From Bacteroides sp. (GTDB lineage: Bacteria > Bacteroidota > Bacteroidia > Bacteroidales > Marinifilaceae), in NCBI GenBank assembly GCA_021771575.1, contig JAETOX010000004.1, forward strand, positions 1-64,000: a stretch of DNA of 64,000 nucleotides, in the 5' to 3' direction. The translations under genes were made by a program, and so were the position numbers. Below are positions 7,483 through 22,179 of this stretch, piece after piece. Position 1 is the first letter of the stretch, and every line of letters starts with the position of its first letter. Below the pieces are notes generated by a model. That model saw only the letters and a list, made by a program, of their open reading frames with translations, ran no database searches and was not told where the DNA came from.

Positions 7483-9276
7483 ATGAGAAACATATATGGC
7501 ATATTTTTAGTTTTGCTGTTGGCTTCCTGCTCCAATTTCTTGCAGGAGTATTCGCAAGACCTTTCAAGAGTAGAAACCTATACGGACTTGGATGAAGTCC
7601 TGTTAGGAGACGGATACCTGCCAATGGGAAGGATTTATACCCCCAATAGCTCTTATAGAACTGAAAACAAATATTTTCAGGCCGTACACTACATGTCCGA
7701 TGAATTGGATGTATTTTCATGGGATGGGGATGGAGATAGGATGAGTATACAAGAAAAGATGTTCGGTTGGCATACCTGGCAAAGGGAAGTGGGGCAGGCA
7801 GCAGAAGGCAATTCACGCGTGGCTGAGGATGAAGATTGGAACAAGGCATATCATTGTATCAATACCTGTAATATGGTATTGGCTTTGATTGATGAACAGA
7901 AGGCAGAGAATGAGAGGGAGGAGTTGGAAAAAATGCGGGTCAAAGGAGAGGCAGCCTTTTTACGGGGATTGTATTATTTCACCTTGGCAAACCTTTATGG
8001 TGAGCCCTATTCTTCTGCAAACCTCAATAAACCTGCCGTACCGTTGAAATTGAGCGAAGTGGTGGAGGATAAAGCCTACACGACCAACACTGTAAAAGAG
8101 GTGTACGATCAGGTACTGGAAGATTTGGATTTGGCAGAGACTTGTCTCTCTGTCCAGGAAACATCCAAAAATCATCCTTATCGGGCGGATATCACAGCGC
8201 TCTATTTGTTGAAAAGCCGGGTATATCTGTATATGCAGAATTGGAAATCGGCTTACGAGTATGCACAAAAAGCGTTGGAGAAAAAAGACGGTCTGTTGGA
8301 CTTGAATACATTATCCAATAATAGCGAAGATGTGTTGACCAAAGCATCGGTAGAAACTATTTTCTCTATGGGAGGACATTTATTATCAACTTCAATTTAT
8401 CACCAAAAATATTATAGGTCCGGTAAGTTAATAAATTTACCTGCTTATCTGATATCTGATGAATTAGTAGCAGCTTTCGAGGAAGGCGACAATGATTTGA
8501 GAACGCAATATTACATTTCTCAAGAAGATTCCATTGGTGGAGGGTATGAATATACCAATTATGCACCGGGATGGGTATTCGCTAAAGTGAAAGGTTGGAA
8601 AGAGCTCGGGTATAAGGAAGTATCGGACCATTTCCTGTTCCGCACGGCAGAAGCCTATCTGAATGGAGCGGAAGCGGCCGCTTTGGACGGTCAGGAAAGA
8701 GAAGCCTGCCGATTGTTACAGACATTGCGTGACAATCGTTTGGTGGATAGTCATCCGGTTACTGAAAGCGGGGAAGCGTTGATCAATCTGATTCGTGAGG
8801 AACGCCAGCGGGAACTCTGCCTGGAAGGTCACCGCTGGTTTGACTTGCGGCGCTACATGGTGCGGGAGAAATATCCTTACACAAAAACCATTATCCATCA
8901 TTATACGAAGTTCAACTACGAAGAACCGGAATATTCCACACAATATATCTTGCCCCCCAATGATCCGGCTTATACATTGGCTTTGCCGAAAGAGGTGCTG
9001 GAATTCCGGAATACGTTGGGTATAAACCATCGTGTAGCTCGTAGTGGGAGTGATTTTATTCCCGATATCCCGGAAATACCGATGAGTGAAGCTTATTGGG
9101 CCGGTTACGAAGCAGGGAAAACAGCAGGACTGTATGACCTTGAAAATGATTCGTATGACGGATGGAATAGAAGAATAAGCGAAAATCCTTACGATGAGGA
9201 CGAAGATGAAGACGCTTATAATGATTGGAGGGGTGGATTTAGTGAAGGATATGATGAAACTTTCTATGGAGATTAA
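7483..9276 (+). CDS. RagB/SusD family lipoprotein with acidic C-terminal extension
   Basis: Lipobox LLASCSNF; 'RGEAAFLRGLYYFTLANLYGEPY'-type motif; 'FLFRTAEAYLNGAEAAAL', 'IREERQRELCLEGHRWFDLRRYM'. Confidence 0.93.
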   Translation: MRNIYGIFLVLLLASCSNFLQEYSQDLSRVETYTDLDEVLLGDGYLPMGRIYTPNSSYRTENKYFQAVHYMSDELDVFSWDGDGDRMSIQEKMFGWHTWQREVGQAAEGNSRVAEDEDWNKAYHCINTCNMVLALIDEQKAENEREELEKMRVKGEAAFLRGLYYFTLANLYGEPYSSANLNKPAVPLKLSEVVEDKAYTTNTVKEVYDQVLEDLDLAETCLSVQETSKNHPYRADITALYLLKSRVYLYMQNWKSAYEYAQKALEKKDGLLDLNTLSNNSEDVLTKASVETIFSMGGHLLSTSIYHQKYYRSGKLINLPAYLISDELVAAFEEGDNDLRTQYYISQEDSIGGGYEYTNYAPGWVFAKVKGWKELGYKEVSDHFLFRTAEAYLNGAEAAALDGQEREACRLLQTLRDNRLVDSHPVTESGEALINLIREERQRELCLEGHRWFDLRRYMVREKYPYTKTIIHHYTKFNYEEPEYSTQYILPPNDPAYTLALPKEVLEFRNTLGINHRVARSGSDFIPDIPEIPMSEAYWAGYEAGKTAGLYDLENDSYDGWNRRISENPYDEDEDEDAYNDWRGGFSEGYDETFYGD

Positions 9277-16954: not shown

Positions 16955-17596
16955 TTACTTATCGGTTAATATTGTTCGATCGATACCATAAATATAGAGA
17001 AGGGCCCCTTCCTTTATGGTATCTATTACTTGCTTACTCACTGCAGGCGGCAAAGCCGGACACCCCAGGCTTCTTCCTAGCCGTCCCTGTCCCCGCACTA
17101 CTCCCGGATCGGCATAGGGAGCTCCATGTACAACGATGGCCCGTTCCCGGGCTTTATCATTGCGTCCCTTTTCCAAACCATCTAACATCAGCGAATAACC
17201 GTTACGGCCATAATAGGTTTCGGCTGTATGGAAAAAACCCAGGGAACTCTTATAAGAGCCCGGTTCATTGGAAAAAGAAACGGCATAATTTTCTCCACTA
17301 TTTCTACCATGAGCAACATGGGATTCAAACAACACCTGTTTGAAAGATAAATCGATGACACACATTCGTTTCCCGGTTGAAGGCCGGGAATAATCGATTA
17401 CTACTAACAATGGTTTCTCCGGGATATACCTGTTATATCCCCTCAATGCTTGCTGAAAAGCCTGATAAGAAACCGTTTCAGCCAATGCCAGTTTCTGGTA
17501 AAGCTGCTGTATCTCCGTTTCCGGAAAAACATGTTTCTCACTTTTACCAATTTTAACACAGCACACCAATAAAATAAACAACCACGCTTTATACAT
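16955..17596 (-). CDS. murein L,D-transpeptidase catalytic domain family protein
   Basis: 'LLVVIDYSRPSTGKRMCVIDL', 'AHGRNSGENYAVSFSNEPGSYKSSLGFF', 'AIVVHGAPYADPGVVRGQGRLGRSLGCPALP'. Confidence 0.88.
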   Translation of the reverse strand: MYKAWLFILLVCCVKIGKSEKHVFPETEIQQLYQKLALAETVSYQAFQQALRGYNRYIPEKPLLVVIDYSRPSTGKRMCVIDLSFKQVLFESHVAHGRNSGENYAVSFSNEPGSYKSSLGFFHTAETYYGRNGYSLMLDGLEKGRNDKARERAIVVHGAPYADPGVVRGQGRLGRSLGCPALPPAVSKQVIDTIKEGALLYIYGIDRTILTDK

Positions 17597-17611
17597 CCAC
17601 TTAATTTAATA

Positions 17612-18523
17612 TTAATCAAAAACAATCACCAATGCTTCCCCCACAGGCGCCCAATCATAGACAAATTGTGCATGCGAAGTGGCATTTCTAACACACATGT
17701 GTGAACTCGGCACAGTACCCAATGACCAGCTGAATTCATATTGCACCGTTTTCGGATAAGCCGTCGGCACTCCATGAATATAAGCACCTCCAGTAAAACG
17801 ACTGGCCCAGGGAGCATGCCCTCCTAATCCTTTTCCTCCGTCTCTGAGATAGGCCATCGATCTGAGTTTTGTCCGAATCACATAAATTCCGAGAGGCGTT
17901 TCCCGTTTAAAAGGGGGTCTTTGTACCCCGGTTGTTGCAGGATTCATACTTCTCACCAACCAGGTAGAATCCCCTTGCTCCAATGTGGCGATATTTTGAT
18001 TCGTCCGATCGACAAAAATCAATTTCCGGAAATCCACTCCCCCCAAACGCTCCGCATATTTAGCCGGCACTAACCATTGTCCCGAAAAAAGAGGAGATTC
18101 AACCATTAAGTAATCAGCCGTGTCTTTTATCACACTCACCAGAGCTCCATCTCTCTCATAACGTTCCGGAATTTCCAAATTACCCGGACAATATAAAGGT
18201 ATGGACTGATCCCGCTTAACCCCATATTTGTCTTGAATTGCCCGGTAAGCGTCCCGACTGGCAGAATCAGCCAGAGGAGCTACTCCGTTCCGATTTTTGT
18301 AATTACTCAATGCAGCAAATTCTTTCGCTGCATTTTCAAATGTAATCAAAGAATCGATCTTACCAGCTATTTTCTCCCACTGAAATGCCCGTTCTGTAGT
18401 TTTATAGGTATAAGCATCTTCCAATGTATGACGATCATACTTCAAATCTTTCTCGATCTTCACTCCTTCTGTCATAACAGCCACTCCAACCAAAACAGGT
18501 ATCAGATAAAATCCCCTCTTCAT
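17612..18523 (-). CDS. L,D-transpeptidase (YkuD family)
   Basis: 'TPLGIYVIRTKL', 'GGAYIHGVP', 'LGTVPSSHMCVRNATSHAQFVYDW' (HxxG...SHxCxR). Confidence 0.85.
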   Translation of the reverse strand: MKRGFYLIPVLVGVAVMTEGVKIEKDLKYDRHTLEDAYTYKTTERAFQWEKIAGKIDSLITFENAAKEFAALSNYKNRNGVAPLADSASRDAYRAIQDKYGVKRDQSIPLYCPGNLEIPERYERDGALVSVIKDTADYLMVESPLFSGQWLVPAKYAERLGGVDFRKLIFVDRTNQNIATLEQGDSTWLVRSMNPATTGVQRPPFKRETPLGIYVIRTKLRSMAYLRDGGKGLGGHAPWASRFTGGAYIHGVPTAYPKTVQYEFSWSLGTVPSSHMCVRNATSHAQFVYDWAPVGEALVIVFD

Positions 18524-18753
18524 CGCCTCTAGATCAAATAGATAAAACTTTTCTATTTGATACGTAAAAATAATTTTTTTTCCTTTATATCGAACCGCGC
18601 TTTTGTACTATTTATGAAACATTCACGTTTACAAGCCTATAGATGTACTTTTGGTATATTATCCATATTTTTTATATCTTTGTAAAGAGTTCATTCTCCA
18701 AAGGAGAAAGGAAATCGGGAAACGGTAAATCTTTGTATTTGTCGTTTCCTGTC

Positions 18754-19245
18754 TTAATAAACCGACGATAATTTTCTACACCACTTTTTCCAGATTTTAT
18801 TCCTATTCCTTCCTTTTACATAATAAGCTGTCAATAAGTAGTAACGATTCTTTCCGCGGGGCTCCAGCACGATAACATAGGATTCCCAGTAATCATAAAG
18901 ATAGGTCCGGATAGCCTTTTTATCTTGCACAGAGAATACATACAATGTCTGAGAATTTTTTTCCGCCAGATGAAAACGAATCCAATGCAAGCGCCTGGCG
19001 CGCTCCGGGTCATATACCCGATGCAGGCTCTTATTTTCAGCCGTAGTGATCAGATGTTCGAAAAGCGTTTTTAATGTCAGCTTTCCGTCTTGTAAAGTAG
19101 GTAAAATTATTTTTTGACGAAATCGATTGGTATGCTCCACAAAGTCCCTTTTAAAAATTCCCATAAGGGAATCGATGCGTTCCGGTTCTTCTAACGCATC
19201 TATATCCAACAGAGCATTATATTGTTGCAGCAAGTTAAGTGGCAT
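18754..19245 (-). CDS. putative BECR-fold (phage-barnase/RelE-like) nuclease
   Basis: 'DPERARRLHWIRFHLAEKNSQTLYVFSVQDKKAIRTYLYDYWESYVIVLEPRGKNRYYLLTAYYVKGRN' resembles PBECR-type domains with the C-terminal LLTAYYV strand; start codon 1 nt after the upstream stop. Confidence 0.55.
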   Translation of the reverse strand: MPLNLLQQYNALLDIDALEEPERIDSLMGIFKRDFVEHTNRFRQKIILPTLQDGKLTLKTLFEHLITTAENKSLHRVYDPERARRLHWIRFHLAEKNSQTLYVFSVQDKKAIRTYLYDYWESYVIVLEPRGKNRYYLLTAYYVKGRNRNKIWKKWCRKLSSVY

Positions 19246-19246
19246 C

Positions 19247-19927
19247 TTAAATTCTGATTCGAAACAAATTGAACTTATAAAAGCTTTTTCCTGTCGTATT
19301 TTCTAAATCGGTACGTGAACGGTTCCGGATTTTTTCGATCAACCGGAGTTTGGGCAAAGACGATTTAGCTGTATGATTCAAATGATAAGAGATAGCACCG
19401 ATAAGCAAATCACACAATTGAAGTAAATCCAACTCGTGCGAACGGACATGCTGTATTTTCTTTATCACTCCCATTTGTACATTCAATATTTTTTGCAGTT
19501 CGGTAATCCGATGATGACTCAAATTATCTTTGATATCCAGATAAATATTGTAGTTTACTCCTGTATCCAACATGTGATAAATCAATTGATAATACATCAA
19601 ATAATAAAATTTATCATAGTCATCCCCACACTTGTCTTTGATATAGCGATATTTATCCACAATGATCGCCCGAAAACGTATATCCGACCGACTAAAAAAC
19701 CAATCCACCAGCCTGGAATAAAATTCAAAATTCCACTCATTCAAATAAGTCCATTTTACTTCCAGGGTATTCTTATATTTTGTCCGCAAAATCTTCAGCT
19801 CTTTTTTCAAGCTACATGTCCGATAATCAGGAACCGAGATATAACCAAGAATCATAAACTGTTTTCCGTCATTACGCAGATGACAGCTTTCATCACAATA
19901 AAAATTATATACTTTGTCAGCGCCCAT
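19247..19927 (-). CDS. DUF3800 domain-containing protein
   Basis: N-terminal 'YNFYCDESCHL', later 'LDIKDN', and 'LDLLQLCDLLIGAISYHLN' match DUF3800 conserved positions; MGADKVY start (19927) preferred over 19993. Confidence 0.8.
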   Translation of the reverse strand: MGADKVYNFYCDESCHLRNDGKQFMILGYISVPDYRTCSLKKELKILRTKYKNTLEVKWTYLNEWNFEFYSRLVDWFFSRSDIRFRAIIVDKYRYIKDKCGDDYDKFYYLMYYQLIYHMLDTGVNYNIYLDIKDNLSHHRITELQKILNVQMGVIKKIQHVRSHELDLLQLCDLLIGAISYHLNHTAKSSLPKLRLIEKIRNRSRTDLENTTGKSFYKFNLFRIRI

Positions 19928-20159
19928 GACACCAAGATTTGCACAAGCTAATTTATGAAAATATTTGCTTATAACAAAAAACAAAGGATACAAATCGGGA
20001 TCATATTTTTATTTTTTTTGACAATTTTTTATCATACGCCCAGTCCAACCATCTCCCCAGAATTGAGTACGCTCAAATCGATGGTGATAAAATTTGTGGG
20101 TTATAATTTTATAACCTACATTTATATGTATCTATAAAGAATTAAATTATACCAAACTA

Positions 20160-20348: not shown

Positions 20349-20758
20349 ATGGATATGACAATGAAAAAACTATGGTTTGAGGATGAAAAGATTTTCATTC
20401 AGACCGGGGATGGGAAAGTCCTCTGGCAGTCTTTTTTATGGTATCCGCGCTTAAAGAATGCAACAGAGGAAGAACGTAATGCTTACCTAATCGTTTGGGA
20501 ATTCGATGGGAAAGCATCGATGAAGACATATCTTTCGAGAGTTTTACCTATGACCAGCCCGAACCTCAGGGAATTAGTCGTTTGTTTCTGACTCATCCGG
20601 AGCTGAATGCTTCGGCCATCGCCCGTCACTTGGGAATGAAACAGAGTTTATTGGCACAGTATATTAACGGGACTAAAAAACCTTCTCCGGAAAGGGAGAA
20701 ACTGATTCTGGATGAAATCCGGAAAATTGGTTTGGAATTGTCAAATGTTGCGATATAA
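20349..20758 (+). pseudogene. DUF2442-HTH protein gene split by a frameshift near 20480-20490
   Basis: 'KLWFEDEKIFIQTGDGKVLWQSFLWYPRLKNATEEERNAY' in frame 0, continuing as 'LPNRLGIRWESIDEDISFESFTYDQPEPQGISRLFLTHPELNASAIARHLGMKQSLLAQYINGTKKPSPEREKLILDEIRKIGLEL' in another frame. Confidence 0.7.
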
Positions 20759-21022: not shown

Positions 21023-21499
21023 ATGGACACAGAAACATACAAATATAATAGTGTTACCGTTGCAAAATTTATTGTGGCTTATGCTCATAAAGAATGTATC
21101 ACAATAAATATGACTAAGTTGCAAAAGTTACTATATATTGCATATGGTTTATACCTTGCTGTCAAAAATTCTCGCTTATTAAATGAACATCCACAAGCAT
21201 GGCCATATGGACCTGTTTTTCCTACCACACGGAATAAGTTATTAAAATTAGACTTAACTACCATTTCATTAGATGATCCAGAATTTAGGAATCTTAAAGA
21301 AGACAAAGAAATAGAATCTCTCCTAAATCTTATTTTTAAGTCTTTTGGGAAGCTTAGTGCAAGTCAGCTTAGTGAATGGTCTCATCAATCCGGATCTCCA
21401 TGGGAGGAAACCGTATCTTCACCTAAATTTAATTGGGGAAAACGTATTGATGACGATATAATTCGGTCTTATTTTAGTAAAATGATTGAGCATGAATGA
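21023..21499 (+). CDS. Panacea (DUF4065/SocA-like) antitoxin domain protein
   Basis: 'VAKFIVAYAHKECITINMTKLQKLLYIAYGLYLAV', 'EHPQAWPYGPVFP', 'LSEWSHQSGSPWEET'. Confidence 0.85.
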   Translation: MDTETYKYNSVTVAKFIVAYAHKECITINMTKLQKLLYIAYGLYLAVKNSRLLNEHPQAWPYGPVFPTTRNKLLKLDLTTISLDDPEFRNLKEDKEIESLLNLIFKSFGKLSASQLSEWSHQSGSPWEETVSSPKFNWGKRIDDDIIRSYFSKMIEHE

Positions 21500-22095: not shown

Positions 22096-22106
22096 CCTAT
22101 TTTCTG

Positions 22107-22179
22107 TCGAGATGACTGGACTTGAACCAGCGGCCTCCACGTCCCGAACGTGGCGCGCTACCAACTGCGCTACATCTCG
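22107..22179 (-). tRNA. tRNA-Pro (anticodon CGG)
   Basis: Reverse complement CGAGATG TA GCGC AGTTGGTA GCGC G CCACG TTCGGGA CGTGG AGGCC GCTGG TTCAAGT CCAGT CATCTCG A folds as a 73-nt cloverleaf. Confidence 0.97.

Follow-up and report, generated by a model that had tools for sequence, protein, structure and literature searches.

The window analysed here, a 64,000-nt stretch of a Bacteroides sp. genome (GCA_021771575.1, contig JAETOX010000004.1, positions 1 to 64,000), carries a coupled gene pair encoding a DUF3800 protein (hereafter A) and a small predicted RNase (B), together with a third part overlooked by the initial annotation: a gene for a structured RNA, convergent with the pair and directed into its end. 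We consider this anatomy, pair plus RNA, to be solid. As a leading but tentative reading, which we hold at somewhat below even confidence, we propose that the three parts form a tripartite, RNA-containing abortive-infection module in which B would be an RNase toxin and A, with the RNA, its control or sensor part.

A coupled gene pair and a convergent RNA

The features of the locus, in window coordinates, are as follows.

18650-18653, + strand: TTTG, read from the sequence as a candidate -33 promoter element of the RNA, 21 nt ahead of its -7 box
18675-18682, + strand: TATCTTTG, exact Bacteroidota -7 box (TAnnTTTG) of the RNA
18687-18753, + strand: convergent structured RNA of ~67 nt, ending at the B stop codon
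18690-18713, + strand: hairpin 1, UUC-AU-UCUCC-AAA-GGAGA-AAG-GAA, with a conserved AU/AAG internal loop
18716-18751, + strand: hairpin 2, terminator-like, directly behind the B stop codon
18754-19245, - strand: gene B, encoding an RlfB-like predicted RNase of 163 aa, with translational coupling to A
19247-19927, - strand: gene A, DUF3800/RlfA-like protein with a predicted RNase HII fold, 226 aa from its ATG

Both open reading frames and their junction read from the sequence as the initial annotation gave them, with the TAA stop codon of A (19249-19247) and the ATG of B (19245-19243) separated by a single G (19246). A TTG start at 19993 would lengthen the gene A product. Gene A matches Pfam DUF3800 (PF12686, E=7e-14) and PADLOC PDC-M04A (2.4e-76), and gene B matches PDC-M04B (1.5e-58); NCBIfam returned no match for either. 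The pair is thus an already listed PADLOC defence candidate, PDC-M04, which both proteins match over nearly their full length and in the same gene order. PADLOC models two proteins, however, and the convergent RNA is not one of its parts.

The genes surrounding the pair include two toxin-antitoxin-like (TA-like) elements upstream of A, consisting of a DUF2442 ORF overlapped by the HTH ORF that follows it (20349-20758, + strand) and a SocA/Panacea-type antitoxin-like gene (21023-21499, + strand). A tRNA-Pro (22106-22179) lies near these neighbours, and two adjoining YkuD-type L,D-transpeptidase genes (16955-18523, - strand) are located directly downstream of the pair.

Conservation of the pair

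Relatives of A were taken from whole genomes, GTDB contigs and IMG/VR, yielding a set of at least 155 homologues that represents the best-scoring part of a larger family and is biased to close relatives. The pairing count uses the 150 of 155 homologues that were complete and had sufficient downstream sequence. Among these best-scoring homologues, B lies immediately behind A in 147 of 150 loci, with spacings from -14 to +16 nt; in two of the three exceptions the B position is taken by a 213-220 aa ORF that the B profile does not recognise. Hosts of the pair among the matches listed include Bacteroidota, Pseudomonas, Alishewanella, Verrucomicrobia, a Bryobacteraceae MAG and viral contigs. Such adjacency greatly exceeds what chance would give and the pair is obligate, which bears out across several phyla the coupling proposed from the spacing of the two genes, and the neighbourhood comparison shows that the pairing is not confined to the window genome. 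At one locus, in Pseudomonas sp. Irchel 3E20 (L102:1999-5995, + strand), the genes immediately preceding A encode an RVT_1 reverse transcriptase and a 561-aa protein that matches no Pfam family.

Predicted folds of the two proteins

In both proteins a number of active-site-like residues are invariant. The AlphaFold model of A is confident (pLDDT 91), and a fold search with it retrieved RNase HII/H2 structures as best matches (2dff, E=1.5e-5, probability 1.00). A is therefore predicted with confidence to adopt an RNase HII fold, as the initial annotation had proposed more broadly in assigning DUF3800 an RNase H-like fold, and the RNase H fold of both RlfA and DUF3800 has been published earlier (PMC3710099; PMC10910872). 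A does not match the Pfam RNase_HII family, DUF3800 alone passing. Ten residues of A are invariant in 79 sequences (D12, E13, S14, E56, K58, D131, S163, D173, G177 and K193). In the model the first strand ends with D12-E13, D131 directly follows a core strand further on and D173 belongs to a helix later in the chain, an arrangement of acidic residues that would be as expected for an RNase H active site.

The model of B is likewise confident (pLDDT 90) and starts with helices, continues with four consecutive strands and closes with one more helix. Colicin D tRNase chains were the top PDB matches in the fold search (E 0.18 or worse, probability up to 0.80), with RelE/HigB-type and BrnT toxins further down the list. 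The layout of helices followed by four consecutive strands, the conserved His and Arg and a Thr or Ser in the last strand are common to B and the colicin D/BECR nucleases, although neither sequence nor fold scores for the window protein are significant. H64 and R82 are invariant in B, and R76, R85, W88, Y123 and T139 nearly so. The Pfam search assigned the window protein to no family, the PBECR families included. One of 101 family members matches PBECR2 (1.1e-5), and membership in that family was unsupported by a profile comparison (hhalign) of B with six PBECR2 domains (2.8% probability). The BECR-like character first proposed for B thus stands in part: colicin D tRNase heads the fold-search list with no more than E~0.2, and the profile comparison speaks against it, so that a BECR fold, though likely, is suggested too weakly for B to be called a BECR nuclease. 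As far as the tools used show, the colicin-D-like fold hint is new.

A conserved, separately promoted RNA

Folding of the flanking sequences in the window and its closest relatives revealed a strong hairpin right behind B, on the strand opposite to A-B; in the flanks upstream of A, inspected by eye, no conserved fold stood out. A five-sequence profile found the RNA in ~80 loci, on the strand not used by A-B and with its end at the B stop codon or close to it, in a common layout of promoter, [C/U]UC-AU-stem-loop-stem-AAG-GA[G/A] and second terminator-like hairpin. The sequence motif is present in 122 of 142 loci. Matched against a covariance model, the window copy reaches 70 bits (E=3e-13), and its genome holds no other credible copy; its fold is 4.6 SD below those of shuffled sequences (z=-4.6).

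Among 27 Bacteroidota RNA sequences, 98.4% of pair cells are paired and 73 double changes occur, versus 20.9 in shuffles; sliding the structure leaves <60% paired. For 36 sequences outside the model, with an alignment fitted to the structure, 92.7% are paired, with 118 double changes versus 37.1, distributed over 16 of 19 pairs. The strand of the RNA is indicated by G.U pairs outnumbering A.C pairs, 49 to 1 and 64 to 19, with 17 of those 19 falling in one column. In 52 of 61 Bacteroidota loci (0.5 expected) hairpin 1 is preceded, at a distance of 1-8 nt, by an exact TAnnTTTG box. For the other phyla, an end point 8 nt upstream is frequent for the best sigma-70-like -10 box, individual promoter scores being mixed. 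Computation thus shows the RNA to be a conserved, separately promoted, structured element. Since hairpin 1 covaries, has a promoter of its own and retains a conserved internal loop, the reading of the downstream hairpins as no more than an A-B terminator is rejected for it.

In 1.15 Mb of loci searched with the covariance model, all matches with E<0.01 adjoin B, and weaker reverse-strand matches correspond to the same hairpins read backwards. Four extra matches to model R1 in genus relatives (L222-L225) were discarded as terminator-like or other hairpins with no A or B nearby and no hairpin-1 signature; model scores below ~30 bits away from A-B therefore mean little. A search of 297 genomes under strict filters found two RNAs, a figure that is not a fair estimate of prevalence. 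Comparison with Rfam 15 returned no match, nor any to an existing DUF3800 RNA family.

Phage P1 and Escherichia coli plasmids

Phage P1 carries the pair as rlfA/rlfB (A 36% identical; B 28% over 82 residues), with the same genes in the same order, overlapping, and a convergent RNA. The P1 pair differs from that of the window in that its genes are annotated as possibly involved in lytic replication and reside on a phage, where the RNA is unannotated. Within the P1 pair region (NC_005856, L203:4945-5479) the RNA occupies L203:5411-5479 (- strand), in the expected place, and is the best covariance-model match in 10 kb (E=9e-4).

A close copy of the pair occurs in 121 of 5426 complete E. coli genomes, nearly always on plasmids. 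RlfB is seemingly unannotated in some E. coli records, the frame being intact in the copy checked. B is split in a few P1-like E. coli plasmids, in one case beside an IS91-family transposase; these events are too few to be read as a sign of toxicity.

Genomic setting and likeness to known systems

Type I restriction-modification (R-M) genes lie near 32 of the 89 loci with enough flanking sequence, and 10 of the 89 are strictly organised as hsdS/M-A-B-hsdR. Six of the loci listed have an upstream hsdS that either overlaps A or lies close against it. Together with the PDC-M04 match, this agrees with the defence setting originally suggested for the pair, and the window copy itself is situated outside any R-M operon, beside the TA-like DUF2442-HTH and SocA/Panacea genes. 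The embedded loci place the pair in the slot of PrrC, which lies among hsdMSR in EcoprrI, is silenced by the R-M enzyme and is freed by a phage anti-restriction peptide (PMC3710099). PrrC differs in combining HEPN and ABC-ATPase domains, absent from the Pfam families listed for A and B, whereas here there are two proteins and an RNA. The initial annotation had missed this R-M context, as it had the PADLOC and P1 rlfAB counterparts of the pair. As far as these tools show, the PrrC-like slot of the pair is new.

A comparable arrangement is that of Rfam DUF3800-VIII (RF03075), likewise a small structured RNA, which converges on a DUF3800 gene from its 3' side; it has another sequence and structure, however, and its DUF3800 genes lack B. 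It was found convergent behind two such B-less genes (L205 and L210), which would point to A as the partner of the RNA. At a further locus (L020) DUF3800-VIII (7755-7819, - strand) lies 3' of a TIR-domain-like ORF (7843-8799, - strand), and this RNA may serve several systems. In type III toxin-antitoxin systems, a tandem-repeat RNA antitoxin precedes the toxin, whereas the RNA described here is downstream, convergent and single, with no tandem array found at its site.

Proposed function and alternative explanations

A toxin or abortive-infection role, as originally suggested for the pair, is plausible. In the mechanism that we put forward, B would be a toxic RNase cleaving tRNA or mRNA, by likeness to colicin D and RelE, and A, probably RNA-bound, would restrain B or sense attack. 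Infection would disturb the RNA, A or a linked restriction system and so release B, which would stop translation, and the infected cell would abort the phage; the module might thereby provide a second line of defence, as PrrC does for EcoprrI. This proposal draws on the near-constant pairing, the RNase HII fold of A, the colicin D match of B and the PBECR2 match of one relative; on the covariation, promoter and G.U versus A.C asymmetry of the RNA and its presence beside the P1 pair; and on the PADLOC listing, the R-M neighbours with their PrrC slot and the link of DUF3800-VIII to A. It also draws on a strain-specific Legionella DUF3800 gene that is essential by Tn-seq and discussed beside antitoxins (PMC7811196). 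Against it weigh the weak BECR assignment, a Legionella gene for which pairing with B would be an assumption, contacts between RNA and A and between A and B that we infer, and the presence of two enzymes that both keep their active sites, which is unusual for a plain toxin-antitoxin system. The literature searched yielded no published tests of PDC-M04 or RlfAB, phage protection included, and no experiments on the A-B family.

We rank B as a toxin under the control of A and the RNA ahead of an active ribonucleoprotein and of pure cis regulation. In the former of these alternatives, which we regard as unlikely, A, B and the RNA would form one ribonucleoprotein attacking phage nucleic acid directly, with the RNA as structural cofactor or sensor and A as effector rather than as a brake on B. 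The invariant acidic set of A on its predicted RNase HII fold and the highly conserved internal loop of the RNA would suit such an effector, as would the DUF3800 proteins that are accessory to RNA-guided V-A2 and VI-F CRISPR loci (PMC12669027, PMC10910872); yet the RNA has no long variable stretch able to serve as a guide, and B resembles a small toxin RNase, not a structural subunit. Slightly less probable is an RNA that merely regulates in cis, as convergent antisense and shared bidirectional terminator tuning A-B, the proteins acting without it. In favour of this, the RNA is directed into the operon's 3' end and hairpin 2 resembles a terminator on either strand; antisense pairing, however, needs no conserved fold, whereas the internal loop of hairpin 1 is preserved and the hairpin covaries in different phyla, with wobble pairs that suit one strand only.

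An ordinary two-protein toxin-antitoxin system, with B as toxin, A as antitoxin and the RNA uninvolved, appears improbable: tight translational coupling, the TA-like neighbours in the window and the Legionella essentiality all speak for it, but an RNA with its own promoter stands beside most pairs (122 of 142 by motif). A function in phage lytic replication, as annotated for P1, we consider very improbable. It accords with the P1 position behind repL/oriL and the C1 operator and with the PHROG label of B, 'replication protein'; most relatives examined, however, belong to bacterial genomes, where type I R-M genes are frequent neighbours, and P1 rlfA and rlfB are nonessential under CRISPRi (PMC10695390), although silencing A probably silences B too, so that this nonessentiality fits either view.

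Significance

The pair as a defence candidate, its RNase H fold and DUF3800-linked small RNAs as a kind are already known. A dedicated RNA family for RlfA-RlfB/PDC-M04, present also in P1, is new as far as these tools show, as judged against Rfam only. We see an almost even prospect that the locus represents an unrecognised class of RNA-containing defence module, in which a BECR-like toxin RNase and an RNase HII-like protein would be controlled by a dedicated convergent structured RNA, acting in trans as an essential part. The module would extend from P1 to Bacteroidota and would have been built repeatedly into operons of type I restriction systems, where it would serve as a second line of defence. 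DUF3800 proteins recur in defence regions, CRISPR loci and phage P1, yet without a settled function, and a dedicated RNA for the pair provides a concrete third component that is testable in a classic laboratory phage. These observations suggest that PDC-M04 is RNA-dependent, in which case a two-gene test without the RNA could miss its activity.
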